A DNA stretch of 38,161 nucleotides, taken from NCBI GenBank assembly GCA_028711995.1, contig JAQTRE010000016.1, positions 1 to 38,161 of the forward strand, read 5' to 3'. This document shows, in pieces, positions 3 to 20,256 of the stretch. The stretch comes from Dehalococcoidia bacterium. Lineage in GTDB: Bacteria; Chloroflexota; Dehalococcoidia; SZUA-161; SpSt-899. How positions within the stretch are numbered: the first letter of the stretch is position 1; each line of letters starts with the position of its first letter. Below the pieces are notes generated by a model, which had not been told where the DNA came from, made no database searches, and saw only the letters and a program-made list of their open reading frames with translations. Made by a program: the position numbers and the translations under genes.

Positions 3-623
3 GATGGCTATGTGGGTGACGGAGACTATGTCAATGGCATGCGTCTCATCTTCTTTGCTGAGACGACCAACTCGGCCGGCAAATATGTATTCGGCAATGT
101 GGACATGAATAACACTCTGCCCGCCTCACGCTGGCACTACTACTATGGCAGCGGGAAATACTGGCCATCCACCAGCGGGCTTTCGGTAAAATGGGTCAAC
201 CAGATCAATATCTACCAACCCAATTTTTACACCTGCGATGACTCCGGTACCCCCAAAAGCGCTTTCACTCAAGGGGACACGGTGTATGTAACGGGCACTG
301 GGCCCCCGGCAAGTACCGAGTACCATGTATGGATACAGACGGACGATGTGCTGATGTCAACGCTCGATGCGATGGATCGTCCTCTCGGCGGTAGCTATAC
401 GCTCACCAGCGGTGACGATCCCTCGGACGAGCAGGAGGAAGTGACCACAAACGGCAGTGGAGCTATAGCAATTACGCCGATCTGGGAAACTGACGTCTTC
501 AGTCCTGTAGGTAACTATGAAGTTGTTGCCGACAACCAGTCATCCGGAACGCAAGGAACTTATGACTCCAACGATAAGTTGGATAACCCCGGATGGTGGG
601 GCTTTACCTTGGCCGCTCCCTGA
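3..623 (+). CDS. Secreted molybdopterin-fold-like protein, 3' part only
   Basis: The reading frame is open to the left edge of the window, so only the C-terminal part is present. The first residues (DGYVGDGDYVNGMRLIFF, then GKYVFGNVDMNNTLP and LSVKWVNQINIY) match the C-terminal half of the domain found in the 6503 and 15805 genes. That domain resembles the molybdopterin-binding domain of sulfite-oxidase-type proteins, which typically ends in a K-W-x-x-x-I strand. After it comes a beta-rich region (TQGDTVYVTGTG ... VGNYEVVADNQ) like the YVTG-type extracellular repeats of archaeal and Chloroflexota surface proteins. The gene ends in WWGFTLAAP with no dockerin and no membrane anchor. The fold assignment rests on family resemblance. 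Any catalytic role is unknown. Confidence 0.65.
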   Translation, partial: DGYVGDGDYVNGMRLIFFAETTNSAGKYVFGNVDMNNTLPASRWHYYYGSGKYWPSTSGLSVKWVNQINIYQPNFYTCDDSGTPKSAFTQGDTVYVTGTGPPASTEYHVWIQTDDVLMSTLDAMDRPLGGSYTLTSGDDPSDEQEEVTTNGSGAIAITPIWETDVFSPVGNYEVVADNQSSGTQGTYDSNDKLDNPGWWGFTLAAP

Positions 624-961
624 TCGTTTTTGCGGGAAAGGGATACCGTCCTGCCGGTTGCCTGCCGCCGCCGGACAGGCAGGGCAGACAGGCGGTGTCG
701 GAACGCAACGTGGCAGAAACTCGGGTATTTCCGGGGGGGGTGGGGCGTCCGCCCAGGCGGACATGGGCTGTTTGTAGCCCGTCCCGGTCAAGACCGGGCG
801 GTAGGCCAGCGATTGAAATCGTGGCCTACATGTAAGGCTGTCCGCCTGCACGGACGGAATGCCCGGATAACGGACACTCTCAGCCTGTAAATGGGAAGTT
901 GCTGAGTAGGCCAGCGGCCAGCCAATCGGGAAAAAGGTACTAACAAAAAAGGAAGGTTGAG
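624..961. other. Intergenic region packed with hairpins
   Basis: No convincing gene is seen in this 338-bp gap. It holds at least four short perfect inverted repeats between 747 and 855, listed separately. A purine-rich ribosome-binding region (aaggaaggttgag) sits just before the next start codon. Open frames here lack homology and overlap the palindromes, so I treat them as spurious. Confidence 0.6.
747..855. repeat. Cluster of perfect inverted repeats
   Basis: Four separate inverted repeats lie side by side: gtccgcc/ggcggac at 747-762, cccggtc/gaccggg at 783-798, gtaggcca/tggcctac at 801-829 and gtccg/cggac at 840-855. The 801-829 repeat starts with GTAG and ends with CTAC, like the REP-type palindromes elsewhere in the window. 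The cluster lies between two surface-protein genes and could end the upstream transcript, or it could be a REP array. There is no T-run. Confidence 0.7.
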
Positions 962-3436
962 ATGTACAAGAGTGAGAGAGCAAACGGAGTGTTGGCGATA
1001 CTAATGATTCTATCGATGCTTGGTGTGCTGTTGCTGGCTCTGATTTCGCCGGCGACAGCCTCGGCTGCCGGACTAGTGGAGCAGGCTTCGGCGGTGGAGG
1101 CGGCAGAATGGTACGGGAGTTATCTTGGAGGATCCAATTACGACTATGGGGAAAGCATTGCAGTGGACAATACGGGGAACAGCTACGTAACCGGACGTAC
1201 AAAATCTACAGACTTCCCCGTCACCACAGGTGCCTACCAGGCAACCGGAGCCGGCGGGTATGACGTCTTCATAACCAAGTTCAGTTCCAGCGTTAACCTG
1301 ATTTATGGCACTTATCTCGGGGGCGCCGGCACTGATTACGGCAGAAGTATTGCTGTAGACAACGCCGGTAACGTCTACGTCACAGGCTATACAAACTCTA
1401 CAGATTTCCCCGTTACCACAGGTGCCTACCAGGCAACCGGAGCCGGCGGGTATGATGTCTTCATAACCAAGTTCAGTTCCACCGGCAACATGGCCTACAG
1501 CACCTATTTTGGTGGCACCGGTCTTGACGATGCAAACAGTATCGCCGTAGACAATACAGGGAACATCTACATCACCGGATACACTGCTTCTCTTGCAGAC
1601 TTCCCTGTTACCGAGGGTGCCTATCAGTCTACCAGTCAGGGTTTGCGGGATGCTTTCCTAGCCAAGTTCAATTCAGACGGCAACTTGGTCTACAGCACCT
1701 ACTTCGGAGGGGCCGATGAAGATACTGCATACGGCATTGCCGTGGACGATATGGGAAACATGTACATAGCCGGAAAGACAAAGTCAACGAATTTCCCAAC
1801 TACCCCCGATGCTTATCAGACAACATACGGGGGAAGTAGCCTCGATGCTTTCGTAGCCAAATTCAATGCAGCTGGCAATCTGGCCTATAGCACCTATCTC
1901 GGAGGTTCCGGTTCTGACAATGCATTTAGTATTACCATGGACAATACAGGGAAATTCTACATCGCCGGATCCACAAACTCCACAGACTTCCCCCTTACCG
2001 CGGATGCTTATCAAACAACACTTAGTGGCACCACTGACACCTTCTTGGTCCAGTTCAGTTCCAGCGGCAACCTGGTCTACAGCACCTATTTCGGAGGTTC
2101 CGGTATTGACCAGGCAAACGGCATAGCTGTGGACAATACAGAAAACATCTACATCACCGGATGCACTAGCTCTACAGATTTCCCCATTACCGCAAGCGCC
2201 TATCAGACAGCCCATGGTGGAGGTACTACGGACGCCTTCGTAACTAGGTTTGGCCCTGGCGGTAACCTGGCCTACAGCACTTACCTCGGCGGCTCTGGTT
2301 CCACCGACCAAGGAAGTAGTATTGCAGCGGATATCACCGGAAACGCCTATATCAGCGGATATACAAACTCTACAAACTTCCCCGTTACACCAAACAGTTA
2401 CCAAACAACCCATGGCGGGGGAACCTATGATGCTTTCTTTGCTAGAATGACAGTAGCTGCATCTCCAGCTCCCGTGGCTGCCTTTAGCGCTGCCCCCACC
2501 AGTGGAGATGCTCCGCTGACTGTCAACTTCACTGACGAGTCAACAGGCACAGCACCGCTCACCTATGCCTGGGACTTCGACAACGACGGCACACCGGATT
2601 CCACCGACCAGAACCCGATCTATATCTATACCATTAGCGGTATTCATACGGTTAAGCTGACTGCCACGAATGCCTATGGCAGTGATGATGAGGTCAAGAC
2701 TGCCTACATCACCGTCAACGCGGCACTGGTGGCCCCGACGGCGGCCTTCACAGCCAGCCCGACCAGCGGCACGGCTCCTCTTGCCGTTAGCTTCAGTGAC
2801 CAGTCAACGGGCACAGCTCCATTAACTTATGCTTGGGACTTCGATAACGACGGTGTGGTCGACTCTACTGATCAGAATCCATCTCATGTCTACAGTGCTG
2901 TCGGCACCTACACGGTCAAACTTACGGTGACCAACGCCGCTTCCAGTGACGATGAGGTGAAGACCGATTACATCACCGTCAACTCGGCACCGGTGGCCCC
3001 GACGGCGGCTTTCATTGCCAGCCCGACCAGCGGCACGGCTCCTCTTGCCGTTAGCTTCAGCGACCAGTCAACGGGCACAGCTCCATTAACTTATGCTTGG
3101 GACTTCGATAACGACGGTGTGGTCGACTCTACTGATCAGAATCCATCTCATGTCTATAGTGCTGTCGGCACCTACACGGTCAAGCTCACAGTGGCCAATG
3201 CCGGCGGCAGTGATGACGAGATAAAGACCGGCTTTATCACGGTGACAATGTCTTCTACTCCGGCGTGGGACCTGAACGGTGACGGAGTCTGCAACATCGG
3301 GGATGTGGTGGTGATCGGTCTGCACTGGGGCGATACAGGGACCCCGGGCTGGATTCCTGAAGACCTGAACAACGATGGCGCCATCAATATTGGCGACGTG
3401 GTGGTCATTGGCCTGCACTGGGGGGAGAGCTGGTAA
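962..3436 (+). CDS. Secreted SBBP beta-propeller protein with three PKD domains and a C-terminal dockerin
   Basis: 824 aa. A signal peptide (about residues 1-36, ending in ATASAAG) leads into roughly nine SBBP-type repeats (about 50-495). Each has the pattern YSTYLGGSG, then a short D-rich turn, IAVDNTGN-IYITG, S-T-DFP and AYQ; this is the family of seven-bladed propeller-like repeats on bacterial surface proteins. Three PKD domains follow (about 496-590, 591-678, 679-766), each with the YAWDFDNDG core. The last 56 residues are a dockerin with two calcium loops (DLNGDGVCNIGD and DLNNDGAINIGD) and paired GLHWG motifs, ending in the final Trp. The start has a purine-rich RBS (aaggaaggttgag). 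The dockerin implies docking on a cohesin, and three cohesin genes lie downstream. The last two PKD units and the start of the dockerin are copied exactly in the next gene. Confidence 0.9.
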   Translation: MYKSERANGVLAILMILSMLGVLLLALISPATASAAGLVEQASAVEAAEWYGSYLGGSNYDYGESIAVDNTGNSYVTGRTKSTDFPVTTGAYQATGAGGYDVFITKFSSSVNLIYGTYLGGAGTDYGRSIAVDNAGNVYVTGYTNSTDFPVTTGAYQATGAGGYDVFITKFSSTGNMAYSTYFGGTGLDDANSIAVDNTGNIYITGYTASLADFPVTEGAYQSTSQGLRDAFLAKFNSDGNLVYSTYFGGADEDTAYGIAVDDMGNMYIAGKTKSTNFPTTPDAYQTTYGGSSLDAFVAKFNAAGNLAYSTYLGGSGSDNAFSITMDNTGKFYIAGSTNSTDFPLTADAYQTTLSGTTDTFLVQFSSSGNLVYSTYFGGSGIDQANGIAVDNTENIYITGCTSSTDFPITASAYQTAHGGGTTDAFVTRFGPGGNLAYSTYLGGSGSTDQGSSIAADITGNAYISGYTNSTNFPVTPNSYQTTHGGGTYDAFFARMTVAASPAPVAAFSAAPTSGDAPLTVNFTDESTGTAPLTYAWDFDNDGTPDSTDQNPIYIYTISGIHTVKLTATNAYGSDDEVKTAYITVNAALVAPTAAFTASPTSGTAPLAVSFSDQSTGTAPLTYAWDFDNDGVVDSTDQNPSHVYSAVGTYTVKLTVTNAASSDDEVKTDYITVNSAPVAPTAAFIASPTSGTAPLAVSFSDQSTGTAPLTYAWDFDNDGVVDSTDQNPSHVYSAVGTYTVKLTVANAGGSDDEIKTGFITVTMSSTPAWDLNGDGVCNIGDVVVIGLHWGDTGTPGWIPEDLNNDGAINIGDVVVIGLHWGESW
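2735..3276 (+). repeat. 542-bp exact duplicate, copy 1
   Basis: This block encodes two PKD domains and the first residues of the dockerin. By eye it is base-for-base identical to 5540-6081, including third codon positions. The flanks differ (gccccg against gctccg on the left; the dockerin diverges after cctgaa on the right). The two PKD units inside the block are also close copies of each other with a 264-bp period. Confidence 0.92.
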
Positions 3437-3461
3437 GCGGCTGAGTTGAGACGAGAAGATT

Positions 3462-3503
3462 TTTCCGATGCCTGCCCTTCTTCGGGAGGGCAGGCATCGG
3501 AAA
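3462..3503. terminator. Long hairpin with UUCG tetraloop
   Basis: A 19-bp stem (left arm begins tttccgatgcctgccc, with one G-U pair near the loop) closes on a ttcg tetraloop 25 bp after the dockerin gene stop. It is long and stable enough to end or protect the transcript. A T-run follows it only in the minus-strand direction (aaaaatc read in reverse), so its use as a + strand intrinsic terminator is uncertain. Confidence 0.6.
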
Positions 3504-3610
3504 TGCCATGAATTAGGAGAAATGCAGAGGAAGGGTGGATGTAACGAAGTTCGCGATCTCATCACGATAGACTCGTGTAACAGCAATGAGGCGAATAGGA
3601 GGATAGATAG

Positions 3611-6241
3611 ATGATACACATGAGGCGAATCACCGTCACTATTCTTGCCCTGTTGGCAATCGTTGCCTTGCTGGTTCCCCTTTCGACGGCATCAGCCGGG
3701 AAAGGCTATACCATTGACGCCAGCGCCGGCATCGGAGGAACGATTACCCCTTCAGGGACTATAAAAGTAGGCAGCGGGGGCAGTCAGTCCTTCACGATTG
3801 CCGCGGATACTGGATACCGGATTGTGGACGTACTCGTGGATGGCGGCTCGGTAGGGGCGCAGAGCAGCTACACCTTCAGCGATGTCCAGGCCGATCACAC
3901 CATTGCGGCCAGTTTCGTTGCCCCGTATATCTACTTTGCCAACCCGTCGGCTCTTCCTGGAGTGGAATTCGGCATGAATCTGTACGATTTTGCCCCGAAT
4001 GCTAGTGGAGTAGTCTGGTTTGATACGGATGGGGATGGCATCCGTGATGCGGCGGAACCGCAGTCGACCGTGACTGTGAACCTGGCGGGCAGCGGGAGCC
4101 CGTGGCCTCATCTATCGACTCCGGCGGACGCTGAGCCCGGCGTATATTCTGTGTACGCTGATGTTCCGGAAGGTGAAGCGGTGGAAGCATCGGCTGGCTT
4201 CACCGTCAGGGGCATGATATTGAGCCCTGCCTCGGGGACATCGGGAACAGTCATAGCTATCACGGGGCTTGGCTTCGCGACCGACAGAACCGGGACGGTC
4301 TGGTTCGATAGCGACGGCGACTCGGCGATCGATGCCGATGAGCCTCAGGTTGCGGCCAGCACTGACTCTGGTGGCACCCTCTCTCCCGTGTCTCTCACTG
4401 TCCCGGCCGTGGCTGGTGGCAGTTACTATGTGCGGGCAGACGTTCCCACGGGCGGTTTCGTTCCTGACGTATCGGCCGCCTTCGTGGTTCTTGGAGCGCC
4501 TGTCGCTGCCTTCACCTCGGATGTGCAGTCGGGCACTGCTCCGCTGACCGTCCAGTTCACCGACCAGTCCACCGGGGATCCAGCATCGTGGGCGTGGGAC
4601 TTCGAAAATGACGGCACGCCGGATTCTACCGACCAGAACCCGACTTACACGTACGCTTCCGCTGGTACGTTTACCGTGAAACTAACGGCGACCAATGCTG
4701 TCGGCAGCGACGATGAGATAAAGCCCGACTATATTAACGTAACTACACTAGGTCCGAAAACATGGTATGTTGACGACTCCGGTGGCGCCGACTTCATGAC
4801 CATACAGGCGGCCGTGACGGCAGCCAGTGGCGGGGACACCATCATTGTCAGGGACGGCACCTATAACGAGAACGTCGTAGTTGACAAGAACCTGGCCATC
4901 CAGTCGGAAAGCGGTGCTGCCTCGACCACGGTCACGGCGGTGGTTTCCACCGCGCCGGTGTTTGATGTGAATGCTAGCGGCGTGGTGATTGACGGATTTT
5001 CAGTTCTGGGTCCAACCGACACTCACGTTGCCGGTATCGAGCTTGTAGACGTAAACGATTGCACGATACGGAATAATGACTGCTCCGGAGGACTCTACAA
5101 CGGCATTCACCTTGGTGGTGCAGCAACGAATAATATCATCACCAAGAACTACTGCCACGGCAATACCCAGCGCGGCATCAGTGTCCGGGACACTGCCCAC
5201 GGCAACTTTATCTCAGAGAACACGGTCGAAGACAATGGCGATGCGGGTTTCTGCATCAAGGACGAGACTCACGATAACATCATCTGGCTCAACAACGTTA
5301 TCGGCAATCGGGTGGAGATGCTGACGGCCAACACATACAATTCACTGACTCCGCTTGCCTACGGATACAATGGCGGCACCTACACCGGTTACCTTGGCAA
5401 CTACTACTATGATTACACTGGCAGCGATGCCGATGGAAACGGCGTTGGTGACACTCTTTACAGCTTCGGCACATACAGCGACAACTACCCCTTGATGGGC
5501 GAATGGCATGACGGTGAGATCTCCGTCTCGGTAGTTGCTCCGACGGCGGCCTTCACAGCCAGCCCGACCAGCGGCACGGCTCCTCTTGCCGTTAGCTTCA
5601 GTGACCAGTCAACGGGCACAGCTCCATTAACTTATGCTTGGGACTTCGATAACGACGGTGTGGTCGACTCTACTGATCAGAATCCATCTCATGTCTACAG
5701 TGCTGTCGGCACCTACACGGTCAAACTTACGGTGACCAACGCCGCTTCCAGTGACGATGAGGTGAAGACCGATTACATCACCGTCAACTCGGCACCGGTG
5801 GCCCCGACGGCGGCTTTCATTGCCAGCCCGACCAGCGGCACGGCTCCTCTTGCCGTTAGCTTCAGCGACCAGTCAACGGGCACAGCTCCATTAACTTATG
5901 CTTGGGACTTCGATAACGACGGTGTGGTCGACTCTACTGATCAGAATCCATCTCATGTCTATAGTGCTGTCGGCACCTACACGGTCAAGCTCACAGTGGC
6001 CAATGCCGGCGGCAGTGATGACGAGATAAAGACCGGCTTTATCACGGTGACAATGTCTTCTACTCCGGCGTGGGACCTGAATGGCGACCACACCTGCAAC
6101 ATCGGGGATGTGGTGGTGATCGGTCTGCGCTGGGGCGATACCGGAACGCCCGGCTGGATCCCTGAAGACCTGAACAACGATGGCGCTATCAATATTGGCG
6201 ACGTGGTGGTTATTGGCCTGCACTGGGGGGAGAGCTGGTGA
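3611..6241 (+). CDS. Secreted InlB-like/TIG/PKD/right-handed beta-helix protein with C-terminal dockerin
   Basis: 876 aa. A signal peptide (about 1-28, ending in STASAGKG) is followed by an InlB B-repeat-like domain (about 30-98: GGTITPSGTIKVGSGGSQSF, then GYRIVDVLVDG and YTFSDVQADHTI). Two IPT/TIG-like beta domains carry VWFDTDGDG signatures (about 100-290), then PKD 1 (about 295-378) and a right-handed beta-helix of NosD/parallel-beta-repeat type (about 383-630: YVDDSGGADFMTIQAAV, then repeated N-x-I-x-x-N turns such as DCTIRNNDC and HGNFISENTVEDN). Two more PKD domains (about 643-818) and a dockerin (820-876; DLNGDHTCNIGD and DLNNDGAINIGD) complete it. Beta-helices of this kind often bind or cleave polysaccharide, but no catalytic residues can be assigned. 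The PKD pair and dockerin start are an exact copy of the preceding gene. Confidence 0.9.
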   Translation: MIHMRRITVTILALLAIVALLVPLSTASAGKGYTIDASAGIGGTITPSGTIKVGSGGSQSFTIAADTGYRIVDVLVDGGSVGAQSSYTFSDVQADHTIAASFVAPYIYFANPSALPGVEFGMNLYDFAPNASGVVWFDTDGDGIRDAAEPQSTVTVNLAGSGSPWPHLSTPADAEPGVYSVYADVPEGEAVEASAGFTVRGMILSPASGTSGTVIAITGLGFATDRTGTVWFDSDGDSAIDADEPQVAASTDSGGTLSPVSLTVPAVAGGSYYVRADVPTGGFVPDVSAAFVVLGAPVAAFTSDVQSGTAPLTVQFTDQSTGDPASWAWDFENDGTPDSTDQNPTYTYASAGTFTVKLTATNAVGSDDEIKPDYINVTTLGPKTWYVDDSGGADFMTIQAAVTAASGGDTIIVRDGTYNENVVVDKNLAIQSESGAASTTVTAVVSTAPVFDVNASGVVIDGFSVLGPTDTHVAGIELVDVNDCTIRNNDCSGGLYNGIHLGGAATNNIITKNYCHGNTQRGISVRDTAHGNFISENTVEDNGDAGFCIKDETHDNIIWLNNVIGNRVEMLTANTYNSLTPLAYGYNGGTYTGYLGNYYYDYTGSDADGNGVGDTLYSFGTYSDNYPLMGEWHDGEISVSVVAPTAAFTASPTSGTAPLAVSFSDQSTGTAPLTYAWDFDNDGVVDSTDQNPSHVYSAVGTYTVKLTVTNAASSDDEVKTDYITVNSAPVAPTAAFIASPTSGTAPLAVSFSDQSTGTAPLTYAWDFDNDGVVDSTDQNPSHVYSAVGTYTVKLTVANAGGSDDEIKTGFITVTMSSTPAWDLNGDHTCNIGDVVVIGLRWGDTGTPGWIPEDLNNDGAINIGDVVVIGLHWGESW
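5540..6081 (+). repeat. 542-bp exact duplicate, copy 2
   Basis: Identical to 2735-3276 at a constant offset of 2805 bp, which keeps the reading frame. Absence of silent differences points to very recent duplication or gene conversion. Confidence 0.92.
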
Positions 6242-6502: not shown

Positions 6503-8335
6503 ATGAAGAATAGACTGGCTCTGGGATTTTTGAGCCTTGTATTGATGGCAGGCATAATCGTTGGCGGAGTATTATTCACTGCATCAGTGGAAGCTACCAG
6601 TGCAACAGCGTCGCTCCACATTGTGAAGTATGCCGCCGATGGCAGCACGGTGATTGGAGAGGCAACGGTTACCATTGCTGACTTGGAAACAGCCGAGGGA
6701 CACCCAGAGGTGCAGGGTGATGGCACTACCCACTATTTTACAGAAGGCCCCACGTTTGACCCGGCCAACCTGTGGGACCCGGATGAGACCTGCCCCGGCG
6801 ATAGTCTGAAGGATAAGGGGGCTCTAAAAGGCACCGCGCTCAATGACCTCTGCAATCTGGTTGGGGGAATGGCCGATGGCGACCAGGTCAACGTAATGGC
6901 CTCTGACGGCTACAACGAAACGTTTGACTATCCCAATGTTTACAATACCCTGACAGATCCCACCCTCAATTCCAGGCAGGGGCCGATGGTCATCAGCTGG
7001 TGGAAAGACGGGCAGTACAGCGGCAGCGGATGGAGCGATGGAATGCTGCTGGCCTTCTTCCCCACAGTGGGACGTACTTCCGACGGCAAACTGATATTCG
7101 GACACCAGGACATGCATGATTGCCTGCCCGAGCACAACTGGCATTACTACTACGATAACGCAATAGCGTATCCTTCCACCCATGGTCTCTACATCAAGTA
7201 CATCAAAGAAATCAGGATATTTACTGGTGGGGTCCAGGGGTGGACGGTTACCCTCTCCGGCGCTCGGAACGATGTCCTGACCAATACCTGGTTTGAAAAT
7301 GGAATCGCCTGCCATACTCCGCCCGCTAATCCGTTGGCGTTTACTTATACGGATACTGAGAATAATACGTGGAGTGGCCTGCCGCTCTGGTACGTTTGCG
7401 GTCTGGTTGATGACGACAACATCCATGGTCCCGGCTCCTTCAATGACGGCCTCTATTACAATGTCAAGGTCTCTGCTGTAGATGGCTACAGCTACACCTT
7501 TCCCAGCACTGACGTCGCCCGCAACAATGGCATGATTCTGGCCAACAAGCTCAACGGCGAGCCTTTGCCATCCGATAAATACCCCTTGAAATTGGTCAGC
7601 GCCTCCTTCACCAACGGCGGGCCGAGCGTTGCACAGATAGCTGAGATCAAACTACTGAACATTAGTACGACGCCGCCGACTCCCACTCCCACTCCGACTC
7701 TCGGTGTGGCAGACTGGCCTCTGCAACTGGTCGGGGCACAGTCGTACACCATGACCCAAGCAACTTTTGAAAGCGGTGCAGCTTGTCACCCAACAAGCTA
7801 TACCGACGATGACAGCAACGTCTGGAGCGGCATCCCCTTGTGGTTGCTGGCGGGTTGGGTGGACGACGATGTCCAGCATGGTGGAGGAGCATTTAATGAT
7901 GCCCTGGCAGCCACCAATTACCAGATAAAGGTTTGGGCAGCCGATGGTTACTCCTACACGTTTTATTCCGCTGCCGTCGCCCGAAACGATAATATTATCG
8001 TGGCCAATAAACTGAACGGGGCGGATCTGCCGCAATACACCGGGGATCCCGCCACACACCCCGCCTACCCCTTGAAAATTACAGGCCCGGCGACCGCCAG
8101 CGGCGACCGCATAGGCGGCATTGTTAAGATTGAACTCATCGGTCTTCCGTCCGGTCAACCGGAGTGGGACCTGAACGGCGATCACGTGTGTAATATTGGG
8201 GATGTGGTGAAGGTGGGGTTGCAATGGGGGCTGACCGGCATTCCCGGCTGGATTCCTGAAGACCTGAATAAGGACGGTAACATCAACATCGGGGATATCG
8301 TGGTGCTGGGCTTGCATTGGGGAGAAACGTGGTAG
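6503..8335 (+). CDS. Secreted protein with three molybdopterin-fold-like domains and a dockerin
   Basis: 610 aa with a signal peptide (about 1-32). Domain 1 (about 35-240) matches the 15805 protein (LHIVKYAADG, LNDLCNLVGGM, ASDGYNETFDY, IKYIKEIRI). Domains 2 (about 244-388) and 3 (about 402-550, after a PTPTPTPT linker) match each other and resemble the Oxidored_molyb domain: a Cys-His pair (ACH at 270-271 and 428-429), then WSGLPLW or WSGIPLW, AVDGYSYTF or AADGYSYTF, ANKLNG and a final I-x-I-x-L strand. In sulfite oxidase the Moco-ligand Cys lies just before the equivalent W-x-G motif, so these Cys residues could be metal ligands (inference). The dockerin (554-610: DLNGDHVCNIGD, DLNKDGNINIGD) predicts attachment to a cohesin. 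RBS ggaggga. It might instead be a non-catalytic binding module. Confidence 0.8.
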   Translation: MKNRLALGFLSLVLMAGIIVGGVLFTASVEATSATASLHIVKYAADGSTVIGEATVTIADLETAEGHPEVQGDGTTHYFTEGPTFDPANLWDPDETCPGDSLKDKGALKGTALNDLCNLVGGMADGDQVNVMASDGYNETFDYPNVYNTLTDPTLNSRQGPMVISWWKDGQYSGSGWSDGMLLAFFPTVGRTSDGKLIFGHQDMHDCLPEHNWHYYYDNAIAYPSTHGLYIKYIKEIRIFTGGVQGWTVTLSGARNDVLTNTWFENGIACHTPPANPLAFTYTDTENNTWSGLPLWYVCGLVDDDNIHGPGSFNDGLYYNVKVSAVDGYSYTFPSTDVARNNGMILANKLNGEPLPSDKYPLKLVSASFTNGGPSVAQIAEIKLLNISTTPPTPTPTPTLGVADWPLQLVGAQSYTMTQATFESGAACHPTSYTDDDSNVWSGIPLWLLAGWVDDDVQHGGGAFNDALAATNYQIKVWAADGYSYTFYSAAVARNDNIIVANKLNGADLPQYTGDPATHPAYPLKITGPATASGDRIGGIVKIELIGLPSGQPEWDLNGDHVCNIGDVVKVGLQWGLTGIPGWIPEDLNKDGNINIGDIVVLGLHWGETW

Positions 8336-8469
8336 TCATCTAATCATATCTAAAATGAAAGGAGGTGGATAGACAGGAATTTATTAGCAGAGTACACATG
8401 TTCAGTCTCAGACGCTTATCTAATTGTGTGTATTGTCAAAGAAATCGAAGCAAGATACGGAGGAAACAA

Positions 8470-10600: not shown

Positions 10601-11674
10601 ATGAAGAGCCCATTAGCCAGGTTTTCAATGCCCTATATGATTATCGTTATCGCCTTTGTATTGGTGAGCCTATGCCTGTTTATCAATGTCTCGCCAATTT
10701 CGGCATCTCCGGGTCTCAATGTCACCGGATCTCTGGTTGACGTTACGATCTCCCCAGGACAGAGTTATGTTCATACGATGGATATTGCGAGCGGGTCAAC
10801 TTATTCCATGGATATGCAGGTCGAGATCAGAGGATTCGGGCAGTCTCTTGACGGATCAACTATTGAGCTGACTCCCGAAGATGATAATTCCCTGTATTCT
10901 GCTCGGTCCTTCATTACCCGGATTGACAATACCTCCTTTCATCTGGAACCGGGCGGCTCGCAGCAGGTCAAAGCTACCATAAGTGTTCCGGCTGGTACTG
11001 CTCCCGGGACAAGGTATGCCGTCATTTACATACACAGTCAGCCTGGTGGCGAGGGCAAAGTTGGTGTAGTGGTGGCCGTTGATGTTCCGGTTATTGTTCA
11101 TATTCCCGGCACCGATACTGCTGTCAGGAAAGGGGAGATCACTGATCTGGATGTCCCCAAGATAGAAGCCGGTAAGCCAATTCAAATTCTGACCACGTTC
11201 AAGAACACCGGCGATATTCATTTTAAGGCCAAGAATCAGGTCAGTATCGCCGATGAATCCGGGCAAGTGATTTTACAGGCTGAAACTCCTCTGAGCTCGT
11301 CATCCGTTATACCAGCTTTCTCCCGGTTGTTCACTGCCACGCTGGTGCTCCCCGAATCGATGGAAGGCTTACCGGCAGGGAGGTATTTCGCAGAATCGAA
11401 AGTGACACTTGATGACGGGACGTTGCTGGACACCAAGGAGACCAGCTTTGACATAGAAGCAAGCTACCAAGCGCCGCCTACTTCAACGCCTTCGGCGTCA
11501 GCTACCACGCCAGCTCTGATATCACAGTCTACTCCGGCTCCATCCACTTCGACCTCGTCTGACCGGGGTATCAGCTGGTCTCTGATGGCGATTATCATTG
11601 CATCCATAGTAACAATCGGTGCGATAGTCATAGCTCTGATAGTGACACGAAGGAGGCAGCCGCTGCCCAAATAG
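10601..11674 (+). CDS. Membrane-anchored DUF916/WxL-interacting-like protein
   Basis: 357 aa. An N-terminal signal peptide (about 1-36) precedes two Ig-like beta domains (about 40-285). The first has PGQSYVHTMDIASG, FHLEPGGSQQVKATISVPAG and GTRYAVIYIHSQPGG, the pattern of DUF916/COG1470-type domains in which a tail-of-beta domain stabilises surface protein complexes. The second has KAGKPIQIL-like and FKNTGDIHFKAKNQV strands as in DUF3324. A Ser/Thr/Pro linker (about 288-320) leads to one transmembrane helix (about 325-348) and a short RRRQPLPK tail, so the domains face outside. It lies between cohesin genes and may be a surface partner of the complex. RBS gaggag. Family assignment is moderate and partner unknown. 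Confidence 0.65.
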   Translation: MKSPLARFSMPYMIIVIAFVLVSLCLFINVSPISASPGLNVTGSLVDVTISPGQSYVHTMDIASGSTYSMDMQVEIRGFGQSLDGSTIELTPEDDNSLYSARSFITRIDNTSFHLEPGGSQQVKATISVPAGTAPGTRYAVIYIHSQPGGEGKVGVVVAVDVPVIVHIPGTDTAVRKGEITDLDVPKIEAGKPIQILTTFKNTGDIHFKAKNQVSIADESGQVILQAETPLSSSSVIPAFSRLFTATLVLPESMEGLPAGRYFAESKVTLDDGTLLDTKETSFDIEASYQAPPTSTPSASATTPALISQSTPAPSTSTSSDRGISWSLMAIIIASIVTIGAIVIALIVTRRRQPLPK

Positions 11675-13586: not shown

Positions 13587-13704
13587 GACTTCATCAGAGC
13601 TTTCTTAGCATACAGATGGGCGGAACAACGGACACATGGTAGGGGGATGTGTTTCTGATCGCCTGATTGGAATCGCAGTTCAATATTGTTTGAGGAGAAG
13701 TGAA

Positions 13705-14226
13705 TTGAATCTAATAGTTACTAAACGGGAGGCTATCGAAATAAGCCTTCTAAGCGCTATCTTATTAAGCACGTTACTTGTGTTGGCGTCATGTGGCACA
13801 TCTTCATCTCCGTCCGAGGCGGGTGCTGCCATCAATCCCATCAGCAGAGATGTGCGCATTGGTGATACGTTCACTTTCGATGTGCTGATAGATACTGAAG
13901 TCCCCTCGCGCGGGGCTCAGTGCACTCTCACTTTTGATCCGAAGATGACAAGATGCGACGGGGTAACCGAGGGCGATTTCTATAGAGATTGGGCATCTGC
14001 CAACGGGTGCACCGCCGTTCTTTTCCCGGGGCCTGTCATTGATAATGAAAACGGGCAAGTCTCAAGCATTGGCATCGCTATCCTGGGCACTCAGGAAGGT
14101 GGCGCGAAGGGAAAAGGGGTGTTATTCAGTTATCATTTTACAGCCATTGCCGATGGAGTGGCGGCGCCGACCCTTTCGAACGTAGTCATAACTGACCAAT
14201 CAGGCAACGCATTAAAAAAACAATGA
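13705..14226 (+). CDS. Cohesin-domain lipoprotein
   Basis: 173 aa from a TTG start with GAGGAG 7 nt upstream. A hydrophobic segment ends in the lipobox LASC (Cys about 30), so the protein should be lipid-anchored on the outer face of the membrane. The rest is a single cohesin (about 40-173: INPISRDVRIGDTFTFDVLI, VPSRGAQCTLTFDP, CDGVTEGDFYRDW, GIAILGTQEGGAKGKG). It is closely related to the cohesin of the 11804 gene, including two shared Cys residues (QC and RC or QC, 11 residues between them). The C-terminus ends right after the domain. With no other domain, its role is probably simple surface tethering of one dockerin protein, perhaps the phosphoesterase encoded 24 bp downstream. Confidence 0.85.
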   Translation: MNLIVTKREAIEISLLSAILLSTLLVLASCGTSSSPSEAGAAINPISRDVRIGDTFTFDVLIDTEVPSRGAQCTLTFDPKMTRCDGVTEGDFYRDWASANGCTAVLFPGPVIDNENGQVSSIGIAILGTQEGGAKGKGVLFSYHFTAIADGVAAPTLSNVVITDQSGNALKKQ

Positions 14227-14250: not shown

Positions 14251-15639
14251 TTGAAAATGCGTATGAATAGATGGATTGGGAACCGTGTCGGCGTCTTCTT
14301 GCTGGCGGTGATGGCATCTATCATGCTGGTCTCTTTTGTGTCAACAGCACCGGCCGCAGCCCAGTTAGAACCGCTAGCTTTGATGTGGGGCCCTTACATC
14401 ACCGGGACTACGGCAACCAGTGTTGTCATCAACGCAAAGACCAGCGAGCCGACAACCATGAACCTGGAATGGGCTACCGATGCCTATTACAATGAGCATC
14501 ACAGCTATCCTTGGGCAGCGGCACACACTGATCCCGATACGATGCACAACTTCCCGCTCACGGGGCTTGAATCGGACACGGTCTATCACTACCGGCTGAA
14601 TGATGGCGCCGGTTTTTCTGATGATTATCACTTCCGCACTTTCCCCACTTCAGGTCCATTTACCTTCATAGTCTATGGGGACACTCAGGACCAGTTGCCA
14701 TCATTCAGCCAGTATGAACGGTATAAGCTGGTTGCCGATGCTGTGGCTGCGGAACAGGATATCGCATTTGTGCTTCATTGCGGAGACCTGGTGAACAATG
14801 GCAATGAAATTACTGACTGGGACCGCTACTTCGATGTCAGTCGCCAGCTGATGGCGAACACGACAGTCTACCCGGCACTGGGTAATCATGAAAAGAACAG
14901 CGCTCTCTTCTATGGTGCCTTCGGGATTGCGCCATACTACTCTTTTGATTGTGGCGATGCTCACTTTACCGTGCTCGACAGCATCAATACCAGTGATACC
15001 GAGGCTGCCTGGCTGGGTAGCGACCTCGATAACAGCAAGCCCTGGAAATTCGTGTCATTCCATTATCCGATGTACACTTCTGACCCCAATCATTTCGGTG
15101 GCTGGGCTAATCTTCAGGAAGAATGGGAGGATCTGTTCCAGACGCATGATGTAGCGGCTGTCTGGAATGGGCATATCCATGCCTATGAGCACTATCTGGA
15201 AAACGGCATCCACTATGCTGTGATGGGAACAGGGGGCGGTCCGCCGGGCCTGCTCAATCCGACAAAGTACGAAGGCTACCAGAACAGTCTGGAAAACAGC
15301 ATGGCATACGCGAAGGTTAGAATAAACCCTCCCGGCAACACTGCCACAGTGCAGATTATTCGCGTTGCGGACATTTCTGCCGACGGTACCCAGGTAACGA
15401 CCACGTACCCACCGGGTACGGTCTATGATACCTTCGTAATGATTTTGCCAGGGACTCAGCCGCAATGGGACCTGAATGGCGACCACATCTGCAATATCGG
15501 GGATGTAGTGAAAGTGGGGTTGAAGTGGGGATTGACCGGTAATCCCGGCTGGATTTCAGAAGATGTGAATACAGACGGAGTGATCAATATATCGGATGTG
15601 GCAGCAATCGGTTTGCATTGGGGAGATACCTGGCAGTGA
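14251..15639 (+). CDS. Secreted metallophosphoesterase (purple acid phosphatase-like) with dockerin
   Basis: 462 aa from a TTG start with GAGG 7 nt upstream. A signal peptide (about 1-37, ending in APAAAQ) is followed by a fibronectin-like N-terminal domain (about 42-130: GPYITGTTATSVVINAKT, Y-H-Y-R-L). The calcineurin-type catalytic domain (about 133-340) has all metal motifs: GDTQ, GDLVNN, GNHE, the His in SFHYPMY, and GHIHAYEH. This layout matches bacterial purple acid phosphatase-like enzymes, which hydrolyse phosphate esters outside the cell; the PAP-type Tyr of GDxxY is absent (GDLVN). The dockerin (about 405-462: DLNGDHICNIGD, DVNTDGVINISD) predicts docking on a cohesin. The substrate is unknown. 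Confidence 0.88.
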   Translation: MKMRMNRWIGNRVGVFLLAVMASIMLVSFVSTAPAAAQLEPLALMWGPYITGTTATSVVINAKTSEPTTMNLEWATDAYYNEHHSYPWAAAHTDPDTMHNFPLTGLESDTVYHYRLNDGAGFSDDYHFRTFPTSGPFTFIVYGDTQDQLPSFSQYERYKLVADAVAAEQDIAFVLHCGDLVNNGNEITDWDRYFDVSRQLMANTTVYPALGNHEKNSALFYGAFGIAPYYSFDCGDAHFTVLDSINTSDTEAAWLGSDLDNSKPWKFVSFHYPMYTSDPNHFGGWANLQEEWEDLFQTHDVAAVWNGHIHAYEHYLENGIHYAVMGTGGGPPGLLNPTKYEGYQNSLENSMAYAKVRINPPGNTATVQIIRVADISADGTQVTTTYPPGTVYDTFVMILPGTQPQWDLNGDHICNIGDVVKVGLKWGLTGNPGWISEDVNTDGVINISDVAAIGLHWGDTWQ

Positions 15640-15804
15640 ACTTGTGAAAAAGGGCGTGGCGAGAGAAATCTGAAAATTGCGAAGGGGGAAATGTGGGGTA
15701 AATAGACCGCAAACACTGCACCAACATGGAAGGTTTGTCTGAAGCCATAACAACTACGTTCTTCCAGAGAGAAACGATGAAATGGATATCGAAAGGGGCG
15801 AAAA

Positions 15805-16683
15805 ATGCTAAAGAAATTACTGTTACCAGTCTTCTCCATCTTGGTTCTCCTGTCAATTCTCACGGTTCAATTATTCTTGGCATCTCCGGCGCTGGCAGCC
15901 GGAGCCACCACCGAGGTGCACATCGTCAAATATGCACATGATGGCGTCACCGTGATCGCCGAAAAGACGGTCACCTACGAATGGATGAAAGCGAACTTGC
16001 ATGTCTATGGAGACGGCAATATCCACTATTATCATCAAGGCCCTATTTTTGAAGGCGATCTCTGGGATCCGGATGAGATCAACAACCTCAAGGACAAGGG
16101 CGCGGTGCAGGGTTCCAGCGTCAAAGACCTGTGCGACACGGTGGGTGGGATGAGCCCCGGCGATGAAGTGATGATGGTGGCGGTTGATGCATGGCATACC
16201 GAGTTTGCCTATTCGAACATCTATGAGCCGCTGGATCGGCAAGGGATCATTGCCCTTTGCTGGTTTAATGGGGAAGATGCGCTCATTGGGGAACGCTACG
16301 GCGAGGGTTATCCCGCCAAGAATGGCTATAGTACAGCTCTTCAAATCGTGTTCATGGCCGGGACCCCCAATCCGGAAGGCAAATATGTGTTCGGCAATAC
16401 CGATATGAAAATGGCCTTGCCGGAAGAGAAATACCAGCATTTCTACGAAGGCCTCTATCCCAGCACCAACGGGCTTTCCGGCAAATGGATTAAGGAGATA
16501 AGAATCTACAGCGGCGGCATCGATCCGAATCTGAAGATTGAACTCAAGTCGGATAGCGCTTCCGCGGGTGATGATGACGACGATGACTCGACGCCCTGGA
16601 TTCCCATCGTGCTGGGAGTGGTAGGTCTGACTTTCATCGGCGTGACTGGCTATGTTTGGATAAAGGGGAGAAAAGAGGCATGA
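15805..16683 (+). CDS. Membrane-anchored molybdopterin-fold-like protein
   Basis: 292 aa with a signal peptide (about 1-32). The extracellular domain (about 34-235) matches domain 1 of the 6503 gene and the partial gene at the left edge: VHIVKYAHDG, LWDPDE, VKDLCDTVGGM, GKYVFGNTDMKMALPE and LSGKWIKEIRIYSGG. The last strand is the K-W-x-x-x-I seen at the end of Oxidored_molyb domains. No Cys lies before the GSSVKDL motif, so the usual thiolate ligand seems absent. An acidic stretch of Asp residues (about 252-260) precedes a transmembrane helix (about 264-287) and a short GRKEA tail. The stop overlaps the next start (ATGA), so the two genes are translationally coupled and stand immediately upstream of wtpABC. 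Confidence 0.75.
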   Translation: MLKKLLLPVFSILVLLSILTVQLFLASPALAAGATTEVHIVKYAHDGVTVIAEKTVTYEWMKANLHVYGDGNIHYYHQGPIFEGDLWDPDEINNLKDKGAVQGSSVKDLCDTVGGMSPGDEVMMVAVDAWHTEFAYSNIYEPLDRQGIIALCWFNGEDALIGERYGEGYPAKNGYSTALQIVFMAGTPNPEGKYVFGNTDMKMALPEEKYQHFYEGLYPSTNGLSGKWIKEIRIYSGGIDPNLKIELKSDSASAGDDDDDDSTPWIPIVLGVVGLTFIGVTGYVWIKGRKEA

Positions 16684-17255
16684 AAACCAAGATTATTGCC
16701 GCAGTAGGTATATTGCTTATTCTTGCATCGGTGCTGGTTTATCTTGAGCCTTGGGAAGAAGATACGAACGGAGATGACATCGACTGGCAGCTTAACATTA
16801 CCGGGCCCAACGGTGCCCAGGAAATCCTGAGTTATGATGAAATCAAGCATTTGCCTGCCTATGAGGGATTTGGGGGATATTTCACCACCACCGGCTTGAT
16901 CTATGGCCCCTACGAAGTGAAGGGTGTCTTATTGACCGATCTCTGTGACCTTGTTGGCGGCGTTACACCGGAGGATGTTGTCTTCGTGTCAGCCATCGAT
17001 GGATATTCGTCCGTCTACGATTATGACCGGGTGTTGGGGAATTTCGATACCTATGATCCTGATACGATGGAGGTCGTCTCTCACGGAGAATCTAGGCTCG
17101 TTCTGATGTACGAACAAAACGGCAAGCCCCTGAGCTATGATGACGGCCAACCGTTGCGAATCGCTCGGATAGGACCTGATGACAAACTCCTCATCGAGGG
17201 GCAATACTGGGTCAAGTGGGTGGATGGGATAGAGGTTGAGAAGCTGGAGGAGTGA
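16680..17255 (+). CDS. Membrane-tethered molybdopterin-binding-domain-like protein
   Basis: 191 aa. The start is the ATG that overlaps the previous stop. An N-terminal hydrophobic segment (about 4-24) should act as an uncleaved anchor or signal. The rest is one compact domain with the clearest Oxidored_molyb signature in the window: YGPYEVKGVLLTDLCDLVGG, VSAIDGYSSVYDYD, LVLMYEQNGKPLSYDDGQPL and WVKWVDGIEVEKL. These correspond to the G-V-x-L, ADGY, NG-x-PL-x-x-x-x-G-x-PLR and K-W-V-x-x-I-E-V elements of the family. No candidate Cys ligand precedes the G-V-L-L motif. It lies 54 bp before wtpA, and such pairing suggests a role with tungstate or molybdate, or with the cofactor that uses it (inference). 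Confidence 0.78.
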   Translation: MKTKIIAAVGILLILASVLVYLEPWEEDTNGDDIDWQLNITGPNGAQEILSYDEIKHLPAYEGFGGYFTTTGLIYGPYEVKGVLLTDLCDLVGGVTPEDVVFVSAIDGYSSVYDYDRVLGNFDTYDPDTMEVVSHGESRLVLMYEQNGKPLSYDDGQPLRIARIGPDDKLLIEGQYWVKWVDGIEVEKLEE

Positions 17256-17309
17256 TCTCTACAGCCATCAGCGGTCAGCATTCAGGATTCGGGGGGTGAG
17301 GACAAATCT

Positions 17310-18368
17310 ATGAACACAAGAAATCGATGGGTGAGTTTTGTCGCTTTAGCGGCCATTCTGCTTTCGGCCTTTTCCGGGGGCGGATGCGGATCTTCTCACA
17401 AAACGACGCTCAAGGTTATCAATGCCGATAGCCTGATGGTTCCTTTCACTGCCATAGAGAAGGCGTTTGAAGAACGGCATCCGGATGTCGATGTGCTTAT
17501 TGAAGGGCATGGCAGCATTCAGGCCATCCGGCACGTGACCGAGCTGTATCATGAGTTTGATGTGATCGCAGTGGCCGATTGGTCTCTCCTGCCCATGATG
17601 ATGTATGATAAGCCGATGCCGGATACCAATATTCCCTATGCCGATTGGTATGTGAAATTCGGCACCAACCGGCTGGGTCTGGCATACAAACCCTCCGGCA
17701 AATACGCCGACGAAATCAACAGCTCCAACTGGTATGAGGTGATATCGAGATCGAACGTCAAAGTCGGCACTTCCGATCCCCAGTTTGATTCCTGCGGATA
17801 CCGGGCCCTGATGATGTGCCAGTTGGCGGAACTCTACTACAATGACGACACCATTTTCGAGAAGGTCATGGGTGATTTCTCACCCAAAGTCTCGGTGACC
17901 TCAGATAATGGGAAATACACCATTTCTTTACCGGCAACGGCGCGATCCAAGAGGTTGACCGTTCGGGGATCAAGTATAGGGCTTCTGGCTACCATCGATA
18001 GCGGCGATATCGACTATGCCTTCATGTATGAGAGCATGGCCCAGCAGCACGGGCTGAAGTTTGTTGAACTGCCGCCGGAGATCGACCTGAGTTCGCCGGA
18101 TTATGCGGATTCCTACGGGAAAGTCACCTGCAGCCTTTCCTTCCAGCGCTTTGCAACGGTGATCCCCGAATTTCGTGGAGAGCGTATTCTCTATGCTATG
18201 ACCATTCCCAAGAATGCTCCACACCCTGATGTAGCGGCGGAATTTGTGGCGTTCGTGCTTTCACCGGAGGGGTGCGAGGTGCTTTCTAAGGCATATCAGC
18301 CATCCCTGATCCCGCCGATTGTCGACAGACCGGAGAACGCGCCTGCGCTGGTGACGTCGCCTTCGTGA
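17310..18368 (+). CDS. wtpA: Tungstate/molybdate ABC transporter substrate-binding lipoprotein
   Basis: 352 aa. The lipobox SGGGC (Cys 26) makes this a lipoprotein. The mature part is a periplasmic-binding-type protein of the WtpA/ModA family: VINADSLMVPFTAIEKAFEE, then GHGSIQAIRHVTEL, DVIAVADWSLLPMMM, FGTNRLGLAYKP and GTSDPQFDSCGYRALMM, in which DPCGYRS-like signatures mark the WtpA branch. It should capture tungstate or molybdate outside the membrane and pass it to the permease encoded next. The choice between the two oxyanions cannot be made from sequence alone. RBS gtgagg. The gene belongs to an operon with wtpB and wtpC and follows two molybdopterin-fold-like genes. Confidence 0.88.
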   Translation: MNTRNRWVSFVALAAILLSAFSGGGCGSSHKTTLKVINADSLMVPFTAIEKAFEERHPDVDVLIEGHGSIQAIRHVTELYHEFDVIAVADWSLLPMMMYDKPMPDTNIPYADWYVKFGTNRLGLAYKPSGKYADEINSSNWYEVISRSNVKVGTSDPQFDSCGYRALMMCQLAELYYNDDTIFEKVMGDFSPKVSVTSDNGKYTISLPATARSKRLTVRGSSIGLLATIDSGDIDYAFMYESMAQQHGLKFVELPPEIDLSSPDYADSYGKVTCSLSFQRFATVIPEFRGERILYAMTIPKNAPHPDVAAEFVAFVLSPEGCEVLSKAYQPSLIPPIVDRPENAPALVTSPS

Positions 18369-18374
18369 ATCCTT

Positions 18375-18403
18375 GTAGGGGCGGGTTTCAAACCCGCCCC
18401 TAC
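18375..18403. repeat. GTAG-bounded REP-type palindrome
   Basis: gtaggggcgggttt and its exact reverse complement are separated by one base, a 14-bp stem from GTAG to CTAC. It lies between wtpA and the likely wtpB start, inside an in-frame upstream extension of wtpB. Its hairpin could reduce expression of wtpB and wtpC relative to wtpA. Confidence 0.8.
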
Positions 18404-18418
18404 TGGAGATCAAAACAA

Positions 18419-19213
18419 TTGACGAGATTCCTTTCAACCCACAAGTTCACAATCGTCTTCGCCGCGCTGGGGCTGGTCATCCTGCTCTTCATTTTGGTCC
18501 CTCTGCTGAAAATGGTGTTCGCCTCCAGCCCCGGCGATGTGCTCGATGCCCTGCTTGATGATAAAGAGGTCAGAGATGCCATCTGGCTAACCCTCTACGC
18601 GTCGTTTATCTCAGCGGCAGTGGGGATGATCTTCGGAGTGCCGCTGGCCTATCTCCTGGCCCGCCGCGATTTCCCCGGAAAGAAGGTGGTCGAGGCCATT
18701 ATCGATCTGCCGGTGGTGATCCCTCACACGGCGGCGGGTATTGCCCTCCTGTTCGTATTCGGCTCCAATTTCTTCGGCGGCCAATTCTTTCATGCTTTTG
18801 GATTGGACTTTTTCGATGCGGTGCCCGGCATCGTCATTGCCATGATGTTCGTCAGCATCCCGTTTCTGATCAACGCCGCCAAAGAGGGATTCAAGAGCGT
18901 CGACCCCAGACTGGAGAAGGTGGCCCGAACGCTGGGCGCCTCTCCCCGGCAAACCTTCTTTCAGGTGTCTTTGCCCCTGGCGGGGAGAAGTATCATGTCG
19001 GGTGGGGTGATGATGTGGGCCAGAGGGGTGAGCGAGTTCGGCGCAGTAATTATCATCGCTTACTATCCCATGATCGCCCCGACGCTGGTTTATCAACGTT
19101 ATGAGACGCAGGGACTGGATGGTGCCAGGAACGTTGCGGTCGTGCTGCTTCTGGTCTGTCTGGCGATCTTCATCGCCTTGAGATACCTCACCCAGAAAGG
19201 CGGCCGGCCTTGA
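18419..19213 (+). CDS. wtpB: Tungstate/molybdate ABC transporter permease
   Basis: 264 aa from the TTG at 18419, which has GGAG 10 nt upstream. The frame stays open back to a GTG at 18365, but that stretch is only the REP palindrome, so I reject it. The protein has about six transmembrane helices and the ABC permease signature EGFKSVDPRLEKVARTLGAS followed by Q-x-F-x-x-V-x-L-P-L-A, where the EAA loop contacts the ATPase. LIDLPVVIPHTAAGIAL-type and WARGVSEFGAVIIIAYYP segments are typical of the ModB/WtpB branch. It forms the membrane channel of the importer. The stop overlaps the wtpC start (TTGA). Confidence 0.88.
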   Translation: MTRFLSTHKFTIVFAALGLVILLFILVPLLKMVFASSPGDVLDALLDDKEVRDAIWLTLYASFISAAVGMIFGVPLAYLLARRDFPGKKVVEAIIDLPVVIPHTAAGIALLFVFGSNFFGGQFFHAFGLDFFDAVPGIVIAMMFVSIPFLINAAKEGFKSVDPRLEKVARTLGASPRQTFFQVSLPLAGRSIMSGGVMMWARGVSEFGAVIIIAYYPMIAPTLVYQRYETQGLDGARNVAVVLLLVCLAIFIALRYLTQKGGRP

Positions 19214-20256
19214 TTGACATAAAGAACATCAGTGTCCGCCTGGGAGATTTCCGCCTTCAGAATATTACCCTTAACATTCAAAAGGGGGAGTATTTTGTCC
19301 TGCTGGGTCCGACGGGAGCGGGCAAAACGGCCCTAATTGAAACCATTGCCGGGCTGAACCCGGTGACGCAAGGACAGATACGGCTCGACGGAGTCGAAGT
19401 GACCCATGTAGCGCCGGAGAAGCGAGGCATCAGTATTGCCTATCAGGATCAGGCCCTCTTTCCGCACCTTTCAGTGCTGGGAAATATCGCCTTTGGATTG
19501 CGCCAGAGGGGGCTATCGAAGTCCGAAGCGGCAACGCAATCGCAGTGGGTGATTGATCTGCTGGGAGTCTCTCACCTCTTGGAGCGCAAGCCGGATACGT
19601 TGAGTGGTGGGGAAAGCCAGAGAGTGGTTCTGGCCCGCGCCCTGGCGGTCCAACCCAAGGTGCTGTTGCTGGATGAGCCGCTCAGCGCGCTGGACCCTGA
19701 GACAAGGGAAAAGGTACAGCAAGAGATACTTCTGCTGCATCGAAAGCTGGGATTGACCATCATCCACGTGACCCACGATTTCGAGGAAGCGTTCTCTATG
19801 GGAGACCGGATCGCCGTTCTCGACCGGGGAGTTCTGGCCCAGGTGGGAACCGTTGATGAAGTCTTTCGCCAGCCCAACTCCGAGTTCGTGGCCCGCTTTC
19901 TGATGGCGCGTAACATCTTCAGCGGCGATATCCGGGATGGCGAGGGAATGCACCCGATGATGCACATCCAGGGCTTGAAAGTGCCCGTGACCACTTCCCT
20001 GCGAGGTGAGCGCCATGTCTCCATCCGCCCGGAAGATGTTCTCCTCTCCGCCAAACCGATGGCCGATGATACCCGCGTTTCTTTTCAGGGGCGCGTCACT
20101 TCCGTTTCAAACAAGGGATCGGTGGTCTATGTCTCGGTGAATGTGCCCCCGGAGTTTGTCTGCCTGCTCACCCGTCGGGAGTTCGAGATGATGCGCCTGG
20201 CGGAGGGGGAAGAGGTGTTCGTGGGATTTGAGATCAAGGCCCTGCACGTCTTCTGA
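19210..20256 (+). CDS. wtpC: Tungstate/molybdate ABC transporter ATP-binding protein
   Basis: 348 aa from a TTG overlapping the wtpB stop. Walker A is GPTGAGKTALIE, the signature is LSGGESQRVVLARAL and Walker B is VLLLDEPLSALD, followed by the His-switch THD. The C-terminal about 110 residues form a TOBE-type regulatory domain (HVSIRPEDVLLS, then VTSVSNKGSVVYVSVNVPPE), as in ModC/WtpC/PotA-type importers, where it can bind the oxyanion and inhibit transport. It powers WtpA-WtpB uptake. The end (VGFEIKALHVF) is partly duplicated about 680 bp downstream as a remnant. Substrate choice comes from context. Confidence 0.88.
   Translation: MIDIKNISVRLGDFRLQNITLNIQKGEYFVLLGPTGAGKTALIETIAGLNPVTQGQIRLDGVEVTHVAPEKRGISIAYQDQALFPHLSVLGNIAFGLRQRGLSKSEAATQSQWVIDLLGVSHLLERKPDTLSGGESQRVVLARALAVQPKVLLLDEPLSALDPETREKVQQEILLLHRKLGLTIIHVTHDFEEAFSMGDRIAVLDRGVLAQVGTVDEVFRQPNSEFVARFLMARNIFSGDIRDGEGMHPMMHIQGLKVPVTTSLRGERHVSIRPEDVLLSAKPMADDTRVSFQGRVTSVSNKGSVVYVSVNVPPEFVCLLTRREFEMMRLAEGEEVFVGFEIKALHVF

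Follow-up and report, generated by a model that had tools for sequence, protein, structure and literature searches.

A conserved trio of two sulfite-oxidase-fold proteins and a divergent WtpA, carried with a cohesin-dockerin set in a Dehalococcoidia bacterium

We examined a 38,161-nucleotide stretch of DNA from a Dehalococcoidia bacterium (assembly GCA_028711995.1, contig JAQTRE010000016.1), here called the window, which makes up the whole of contig C16 in a draft genome of 3.3 Mb. From this examination, the conserved unit of the gene cluster at its start was found to be a trio encoding two proteins of the sulfite oxidase (SUOX) fold, SUOX-A and small SUOX, and the tungstate/molybdate binding protein WtpA, and not the combination of cohesins and dockerins with the wtp importer genes. 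Judged from their sequences, the WtpA proteins linked to SUOX genes form a distinct clade with an altered oxyanion site, and the cohesin-dockerin set of the window appears to be a local addition to the trio. An earlier note on this DNA had described four dockerin proteins, three cohesin proteins and several molybdopterin-fold-like proteins that share a strand and lead into wtpABC. The strand, order and coordinates were confirmed, with all cluster genes on the plus strand as far as wtpC, while the interpretation placed on them (a surface assembly displaying a phosphoesterase and domains of the molybdenum- or tungsten-cofactor type, Moco/Wco, beside its metal importer) was only partly supported.

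In the window, the trio comprises a membrane-anchored SUOX-A (15805-16683), a membrane-tethered small SUOX (16656-17255) and WtpA (17310-18368), followed by the WtpB permease (18365-19213) and the WtpC ATPase (19210-20256). WtpA exceeded the TIGR03730 cut-off (313 bits) and matched 2onk with 276 bits; NF040839 (321.6 bits) and NF040840 (397.8 bits) were the best-scoring models for WtpB and WtpC, although both scores were below cut-off. When a single genome from each species was scanned, 190 SUOX-A relatives were obtained, and the best 80 of the 190, representing 78 loci, were kept. These loci were picked by SUOX-A similarity, and the rates given here apply to the SUOX-A family only. They derived mostly from Methanomicrobiales, Methanosarcinales and archaea related to anaerobic methanotrophic (ANME) lineages, with a few from anaerobic bacteria. 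WtpA was found at 64 of the 78 loci. Wherever both genes were called, SUOX-A and WtpA lay on a common strand (61/61 loci), separated by a median gap of 548 bp, which is the length of a small SUOX gene. Ranked by number of loci, the recurrent families were SUOX-A (77), WtpA (65), small SUOX (59), a phosphoesterase (37), a large SUOX-A protein (28), WtpB (27) and WtpC (25). It was also noted that the SUOX domains occur as repeats and in fusions, both with a phosphoesterase and in long surface proteins, which in archaea are multi-domain. The trio occurs in culturable methanogens such as Methanocorpusculum, Methanocalculus and Methanogenium species.

The SUOX-A tree is mainly archaeal, and its main bacterial sequences cluster together (support 0.95), a grouping that is consistent with lateral transfer. 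Two further SUOX-A sequences from records labelled Omnitrophota and Clostridiaceae (L052 and L082) fall within archaeal branches, which suggests either lateral transfer or mis-binned contigs.

In classical WtpA, tungstate is bound by a pair of carboxylates, those of Glu218 and Asp160 (Pyrococcus numbering; PMC4139814), and the solved proteins AF_0094, MJ1186 and MA_0280 all have Glu in the column matched to Glu218. The SUOX-linked sequences carry Ser at this ligand-Glu column and a non-acidic residue at the +2 position, with the Asp kept; in the window WtpA the +2 residue is Gly. Glu218 was placed in this column by means of alignment and residue numbering; the contrast between linked and unlinked sequences is independent of that placement. 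In the WtpA tree, 65 of 66 linked sequences were split from the unlinked ones with a support of 1.0, the exception (L103_70) being an additional WtpA close to a cluster. The two nominally unlinked sequences within the linked clade came from short contigs. In none of the 65 linked clade members (0/65) is the residue at the ligand column or at +2 acidic. The 15 sequences that do carry an acidic residue at one of these positions all fall outside the clade; among them are the classical solved WtpAs and unlinked WtpA copies from the same genomes as linked ones.

We then considered the SUOX-fold proteins, of which the window holds five. The domains fall into three classes that are mutually related by profile comparison: SUOX-A, which has no Pfam family, and small SUOX and SUOX-B, both belonging to PF00174. 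This Pfam model was above cut-off in small SUOX (38.6 bits) and in a secreted protein at 6503-8335 (27.5 bits), which combines a SUOX-A domain (6512-7237), two SUOX-B domains (7226-7681 and 7700-8161) and a dockerin. The trio SUOX-A and a truncated protein at 3-623 had no Pfam match, yet both show homology to the A domain in that protein, and a weak, degenerate SUOX-like domain was detected at the N-terminus of a cohesin protein at 8365-10461 (SUOX-B profile, 4e-8). Predicted models of SUOX-A (AlphaFold, pLDDT 83) and SUOX-B (pLDDT 92) matched PruR and sulfite oxidases in Foldseek; PruR was the best small-domain fold match for SUOX-A (7kom) and among the best for SUOX-B. The small SUOX profile retrieved 1ogp, of the sulfite-oxidase family, from the PDB (E=2e-7), and PruR was not among the matches listed. 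A search of plasmids with small SUOX gave a single weak match, a haloarchaeal one. PruR is a secreted SUOX-fold protein without the molybdenum-ligand Cys that binds pterins, with Tyr104, Trp160 and Asn102 or Asp as the binding residues (PMC13259868). A conserved D-G-Y and a C-terminal Trp were also observed in the SUOX-fold proteins, which may or may not correspond to these PruR residues. In our alignments, neither SUOX-A nor small SUOX has a Cys at the molybdenum-ligand position.

We tentatively propose, with somewhat less than even confidence, that the locus is an extracytoplasmic system for the capture and hand-over of tungstate, molybdate or a pterin-bound metal. Under this proposal, dockerin-bearing clients (the SUOX proteins, phosphoesterase, beta-propeller and beta-helix proteins) would clip onto anchored cohesins, and the SUOX-fold domains would take up their ligand extracellularly, binding a pterin, a metal-pterin or an oxyanion in a manner resembling that of PruR with pterins. 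The phosphoesterase may trim a phosphorylated ligand, and WtpA, with its altered oxyanion site, would take the metal oxyanion and pass it to WtpBC. Several points weigh against this. The ligands of SUOX-A, small SUOX and SUOX-B are putative, as is the pairing of cohesins with dockerins. The likeness of SUOX-A to PruR is one of fold (E=3e-4), and a sequence search of the PDB with SUOX-A gave no match. The PruR pocket has been reported as too small for Moco (PMC13259868), and loss of the WtpA Glu could mean weaker tungstate binding. Furthermore, among the 50 trio loci for which 3 kb or more of sequence was available downstream, 31 had no permease within 3 kb of WtpA. Import is thus not a necessary part of the unit, whose conserved partner is the binding protein and not the pump. 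The earlier suggestion that these proteins are tied to a tungstate importer was supported for WtpA, to which the link is real and conserved in distant organisms. Such permease-less SUOX-linked WtpA genes were observed in L050, L051, L055, L098 and 27 other trio loci, where the pump may be encoded elsewhere or WtpA may not act solely as an importer component.

An alternative is that the SUOX-fold proteins sense pterins or oxyanions. They would then be PruR-like, pterin-loaded proteins contacting a membrane partner, with WtpA as a co-receptor and the surface proteins tuning attachment or metal supply. PruR is the nearest single-domain fold and signals via a membrane partner in Agrobacterium (PMC13259868). 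The frequent occurrence of WtpA without its permease would fit, as would a GntR/PBP-like regulator in the cluster of a relative (G068). However, no DcpA-like or histidine kinase gene was found among the recurrent neighbours of the SUOX-A loci, and the repetition of the domains, together with their fusion into a phosphoesterase and long surface proteins, is unlike a simple receptor; we regard sensing as unlikely.

The idea of the earlier note, that catalytic Moco/Wco enzymes of the sulfite-oxidase type sit on the surface with an importer supplying their metal, is favoured by the SUOX fold but seems quite improbable. It also gains something from SUOX-B, in which a Cys (83%) and a His (86%) are conserved just upstream of a WxGxPLW motif. 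In an hhalign comparison with a bona fide YedY-like protein encoded by this genome, this Cys did not fall at the molybdenum-ligand position, but the region is gapped and the alignment uncertain, so that a ligand role for it may yet hold. The missing ligand Cys of SUOX-A and small SUOX counts against the enzyme idea, as does the nearest small-domain fold, that of the molybdenum-free pterin binder PruR, and no Moco biosynthesis gene was found among the recurrent neighbours of the SUOX-A loci. The export signals also look Sec-type and not Tat-type, with loose Tat matches in 3/64, 3/61 and 1/44 sequences by a simple motif scan. Moco enzymes are generally loaded in the cytoplasm and then exported by Tat in a folded state. 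A pre-loaded cofactor on these domains is therefore unlikely, and with it the predicted surface display of cofactor-loaded SUOX domains. Elsewhere in the genome, a YedY/MsrP-like protein with the molybdenum-ligand Cys is encoded on the minus strand at L121 (G000:C74) 1444-2127, beside rubrerythrin-like and flavodiiron-like genes in what is possibly an oxidative-stress cluster.

Least probable is a purely architectural or adhesive role, in which SUOX-like, PKD, beta-propeller and beta-helix modules make up a surface layer or join cell to cell, with wtp as a passenger. The long archaeal surface proteins, the adhesin-like Pfam modules and the cohesin/dockerin proteins that have been proposed to act on the surface of ANME cells (PMC9012536) would suit it, but neither the invariant same-strand adjacency of SUOX-A and WtpA nor a separate WtpA clade whose ligand site is altered is expected of a passenger.

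In the capture and hand-over proposal, the cohesin-dockerin set of the window is the putative means of surface assembly. Type-I dockerins with a duplicated F-hand calcium-binding motif were found at the C-termini of four window proteins and two proteins on a neighbouring contig (C127), the motif being doubled in 6/6. The first window dockerin (3266-3433) belongs to a secreted protein with an SBBP beta-propeller and three PKD domains (962-3436; PF06739, PF18911, PF00404). The second (6071-6238) ends a secreted TIG/PKD/NosD beta-helix protein with a further PKD domain (3611-6241; PF05048, PF18911), and the third (8165-8332) the SUOX-A/SUOX-B protein described above. The fourth (15466-15633) is carried by a secreted calcineurin-like metallophosphoesterase with a purple-acid-phosphatase-type N-domain (14251-15639; PF00149, 64 bits; PF16656). 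That the window dockerins share their sequence, as had been claimed, was verified, the other three being 71-95% identical to the first; among all six, pairwise identity was 58-95% (mean 73%). A profile of the four matched the solved dockerin 2y3n_B in a PDB profile search (E=2.5e-9). With Pfam Dockerin_1, one of the four was above cut-off (28 bits) and the rest scored 14-15 bits.

The three cohesin proteins carry one cohesin each. The first, the secreted protein at 8365-10461, follows its degenerate SUOX-like N-terminus with a cohesin (9265-9699; PF00963, 31.4 bits, above cut-off) and CARDB (PF07705), and no membrane anchor was seen in a transmembrane (TM) scan. An anchoring protein at 11804-13387 has a cohesin (11915-12349), a P/T-rich linker and a near-C-terminal TM helix (393-422), and a lipoprotein at 13636-14226 has a cohesin (13825-14223) and a lipobox Cys at residue 53. 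These latter two cohesins matched the cohesin profile A2 and were below the PF00963 cut-off (20.5 and 16.6 bits), with 36-38% identity to the first; the third has an ortholog in G188, a relative from the same class, that scored above it (27.8 bits). A PDB search with the cohesin profile gave no match. The profile searches proposed in the earlier note thus succeeded for some dockerin, cohesin and PF00174 members, while others that are nonetheless homologous fell below cut-off or had no Pfam match. By profile search, the three cohesins form a single family absent from the rest of the genome. Between the first two cohesin genes lies that of a membrane-anchored NEW3/WxL-like surface protein (10601-11674; TM 323-351), which is kept in G188 (42% identity).

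The dockerin clients carry signal peptides; beyond these no further anchor is convincing, although one client shows a weak internal hydrophobic stretch. Of the three cohesin proteins, two have an anchor. This division of clients and anchors is the layout expected of an anchored surface assembly and agrees with the predicted non-cellulosomal cohesin-dockerin system. A cellulosome was ruled out: Pfam scans matched no glycoside hydrolase (cellulase) or carbohydrate-binding module model in the locus proteins, as the earlier note had anticipated, and there is no multi-cohesin scaffoldin. Other cohesin-dockerin sets of the same genome lie on contigs C93, C137 and C42, and their dockerins are identical to those of the window at only 7-17 of 55 residues. 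Given this difference, mixing between the sets was judged unlikely and the window set is probably private to its locus. The other genes include L012 (C93) 2843-5773 and 7982-9715, L013 (C137) 256-1827 and several L014 (C42) genes; some of their chains carry cohesin and dockerin together.

The distribution of dockerins was narrow. SUOX-A was found in 3/393 genomes of the class Dehalococcoidia and 2/400 of the phylum Chloroflexota, and among about 80 loci the dockerin motif occurred only in G188 (Dehalococcoidia bacterium Zod_Metabat.1111) besides the window locus. The conserved linkage of cohesins and dockerins with wtpABC expected in relatives was thus not found, and its conservation across Chloroflexota is ruled out. 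In G188, a near-syntenic cluster encodes six dockerins that match those of the window locus along with related cohesins, and its contig ends before WtpA. G068 possesses the trio and wtpBC without a dockerin, and here SUOX-A, two PKDs and a phosphoesterase form a single chain with a C-terminal TM helix, adjoining wtpABC and tupABC-like genes. This fusion indicates that the modules belong together whatever linkage is used, and joining by fusion plus membrane anchor offers a natural comparison to the window. On the far side of the G068 SUOX cluster, the GntR/PBP-like regulator and a TupABC-like tungstate transporter were observed (L040:17524-18627 and L040:18664-20000 into L041).

Compared with known systems, the locus SUOX proteins resemble PruR (7KOS, 7KP2, 7RKB) in being secreted SUOX folds that, in SUOX-A and small SUOX, lack the molybdenum-ligand Cys. 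PruR is, however, a single small domain linked to DcpA-type signalling genes in Proteobacteria and not to WtpA, and the likeness lies in the fold, with no common sequence family shown. Sulfite oxidase and YedY (MsrP; PF00174) share the fold and C-terminal sequence, but differ in the ligand Cys and in export route. Relative to the WtpABC importers (AF_0094, MJ1186, MA_0280, PF0080), the window retains the WtpA family, the Asp ligand and adjacent WtpBC, but the SUOX-linked WtpA differs in its clade, its Ser and non-acidic +2 residue, and the permease often missing from its cluster. Non-cellulosomal systems of ANME archaea and Archaeoglobus likewise have cohesins and dockerins without cellulases, and dockerins on metal-uptake-related proteins have been described in ANME archaea (PMC9012536). 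The locus differs in its SUOX-fold and phosphoesterase clients, its operon-like run with wtpABC, and its six closely similar dockerins for three cohesins.

A literature search found no paper linking these elements, with most subscription papers outside its reach. The trio stands a substantial chance of being a new acquisition system. More specifically, though still short of an even bet, a WtpA clade with an altered site may have co-evolved with secreted PruR-like SUOX proteins that lack the molybdenum ligand, giving an undescribed capture of tungsten- or molybdenum-pterin or oxyanion in methane-cycle archaea and syntrophic bacteria, which one bacterial lineage would have made into a surface complex of cohesins and dockerins. 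Methanogens and their partners depend on tungsten and molybdenum, two essential metals that are often in short supply; if the proposal is true, current ModABC/WtpABC/TupABC models miss an acquisition step for metal or cofactor. The trio has stayed together in both archaea and bacteria and has a WtpA clade of its own, and its culturable hosts make testing possible. Cohesin-dockerin clipping is also apparently used beyond plant-fibre breakdown.

The window starts at a contig edge, and the locus carries on upstream. The end of C127 (L022:8431-8557) is an exact match to window positions 1-127, and this 127-bp overlap has the length of an assembly k-mer, which places the two contigs adjacent in the genome. 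C127 carries hisH, hisF, two SUOX-PKD-dockerin proteins and then the 5' part of the truncated first open reading frame of the window (3-623 holding the 3' part), a 467-aa secreted SUOX-A protein without dockerin that matches SUOX-A on both sides of the junction. Downstream of the cluster, a pyr-type gene run includes an aspartate carbamoyltransferase fused with a PyrI C-terminal metal-binding domain (21723-22898), followed within the run by an IS200-like (Y1) transposase-family gene (22908-23474). Further along, a single protein combines an NYN nuclease-like domain with an OST-HTH/LOTUS domain (32868-33671).

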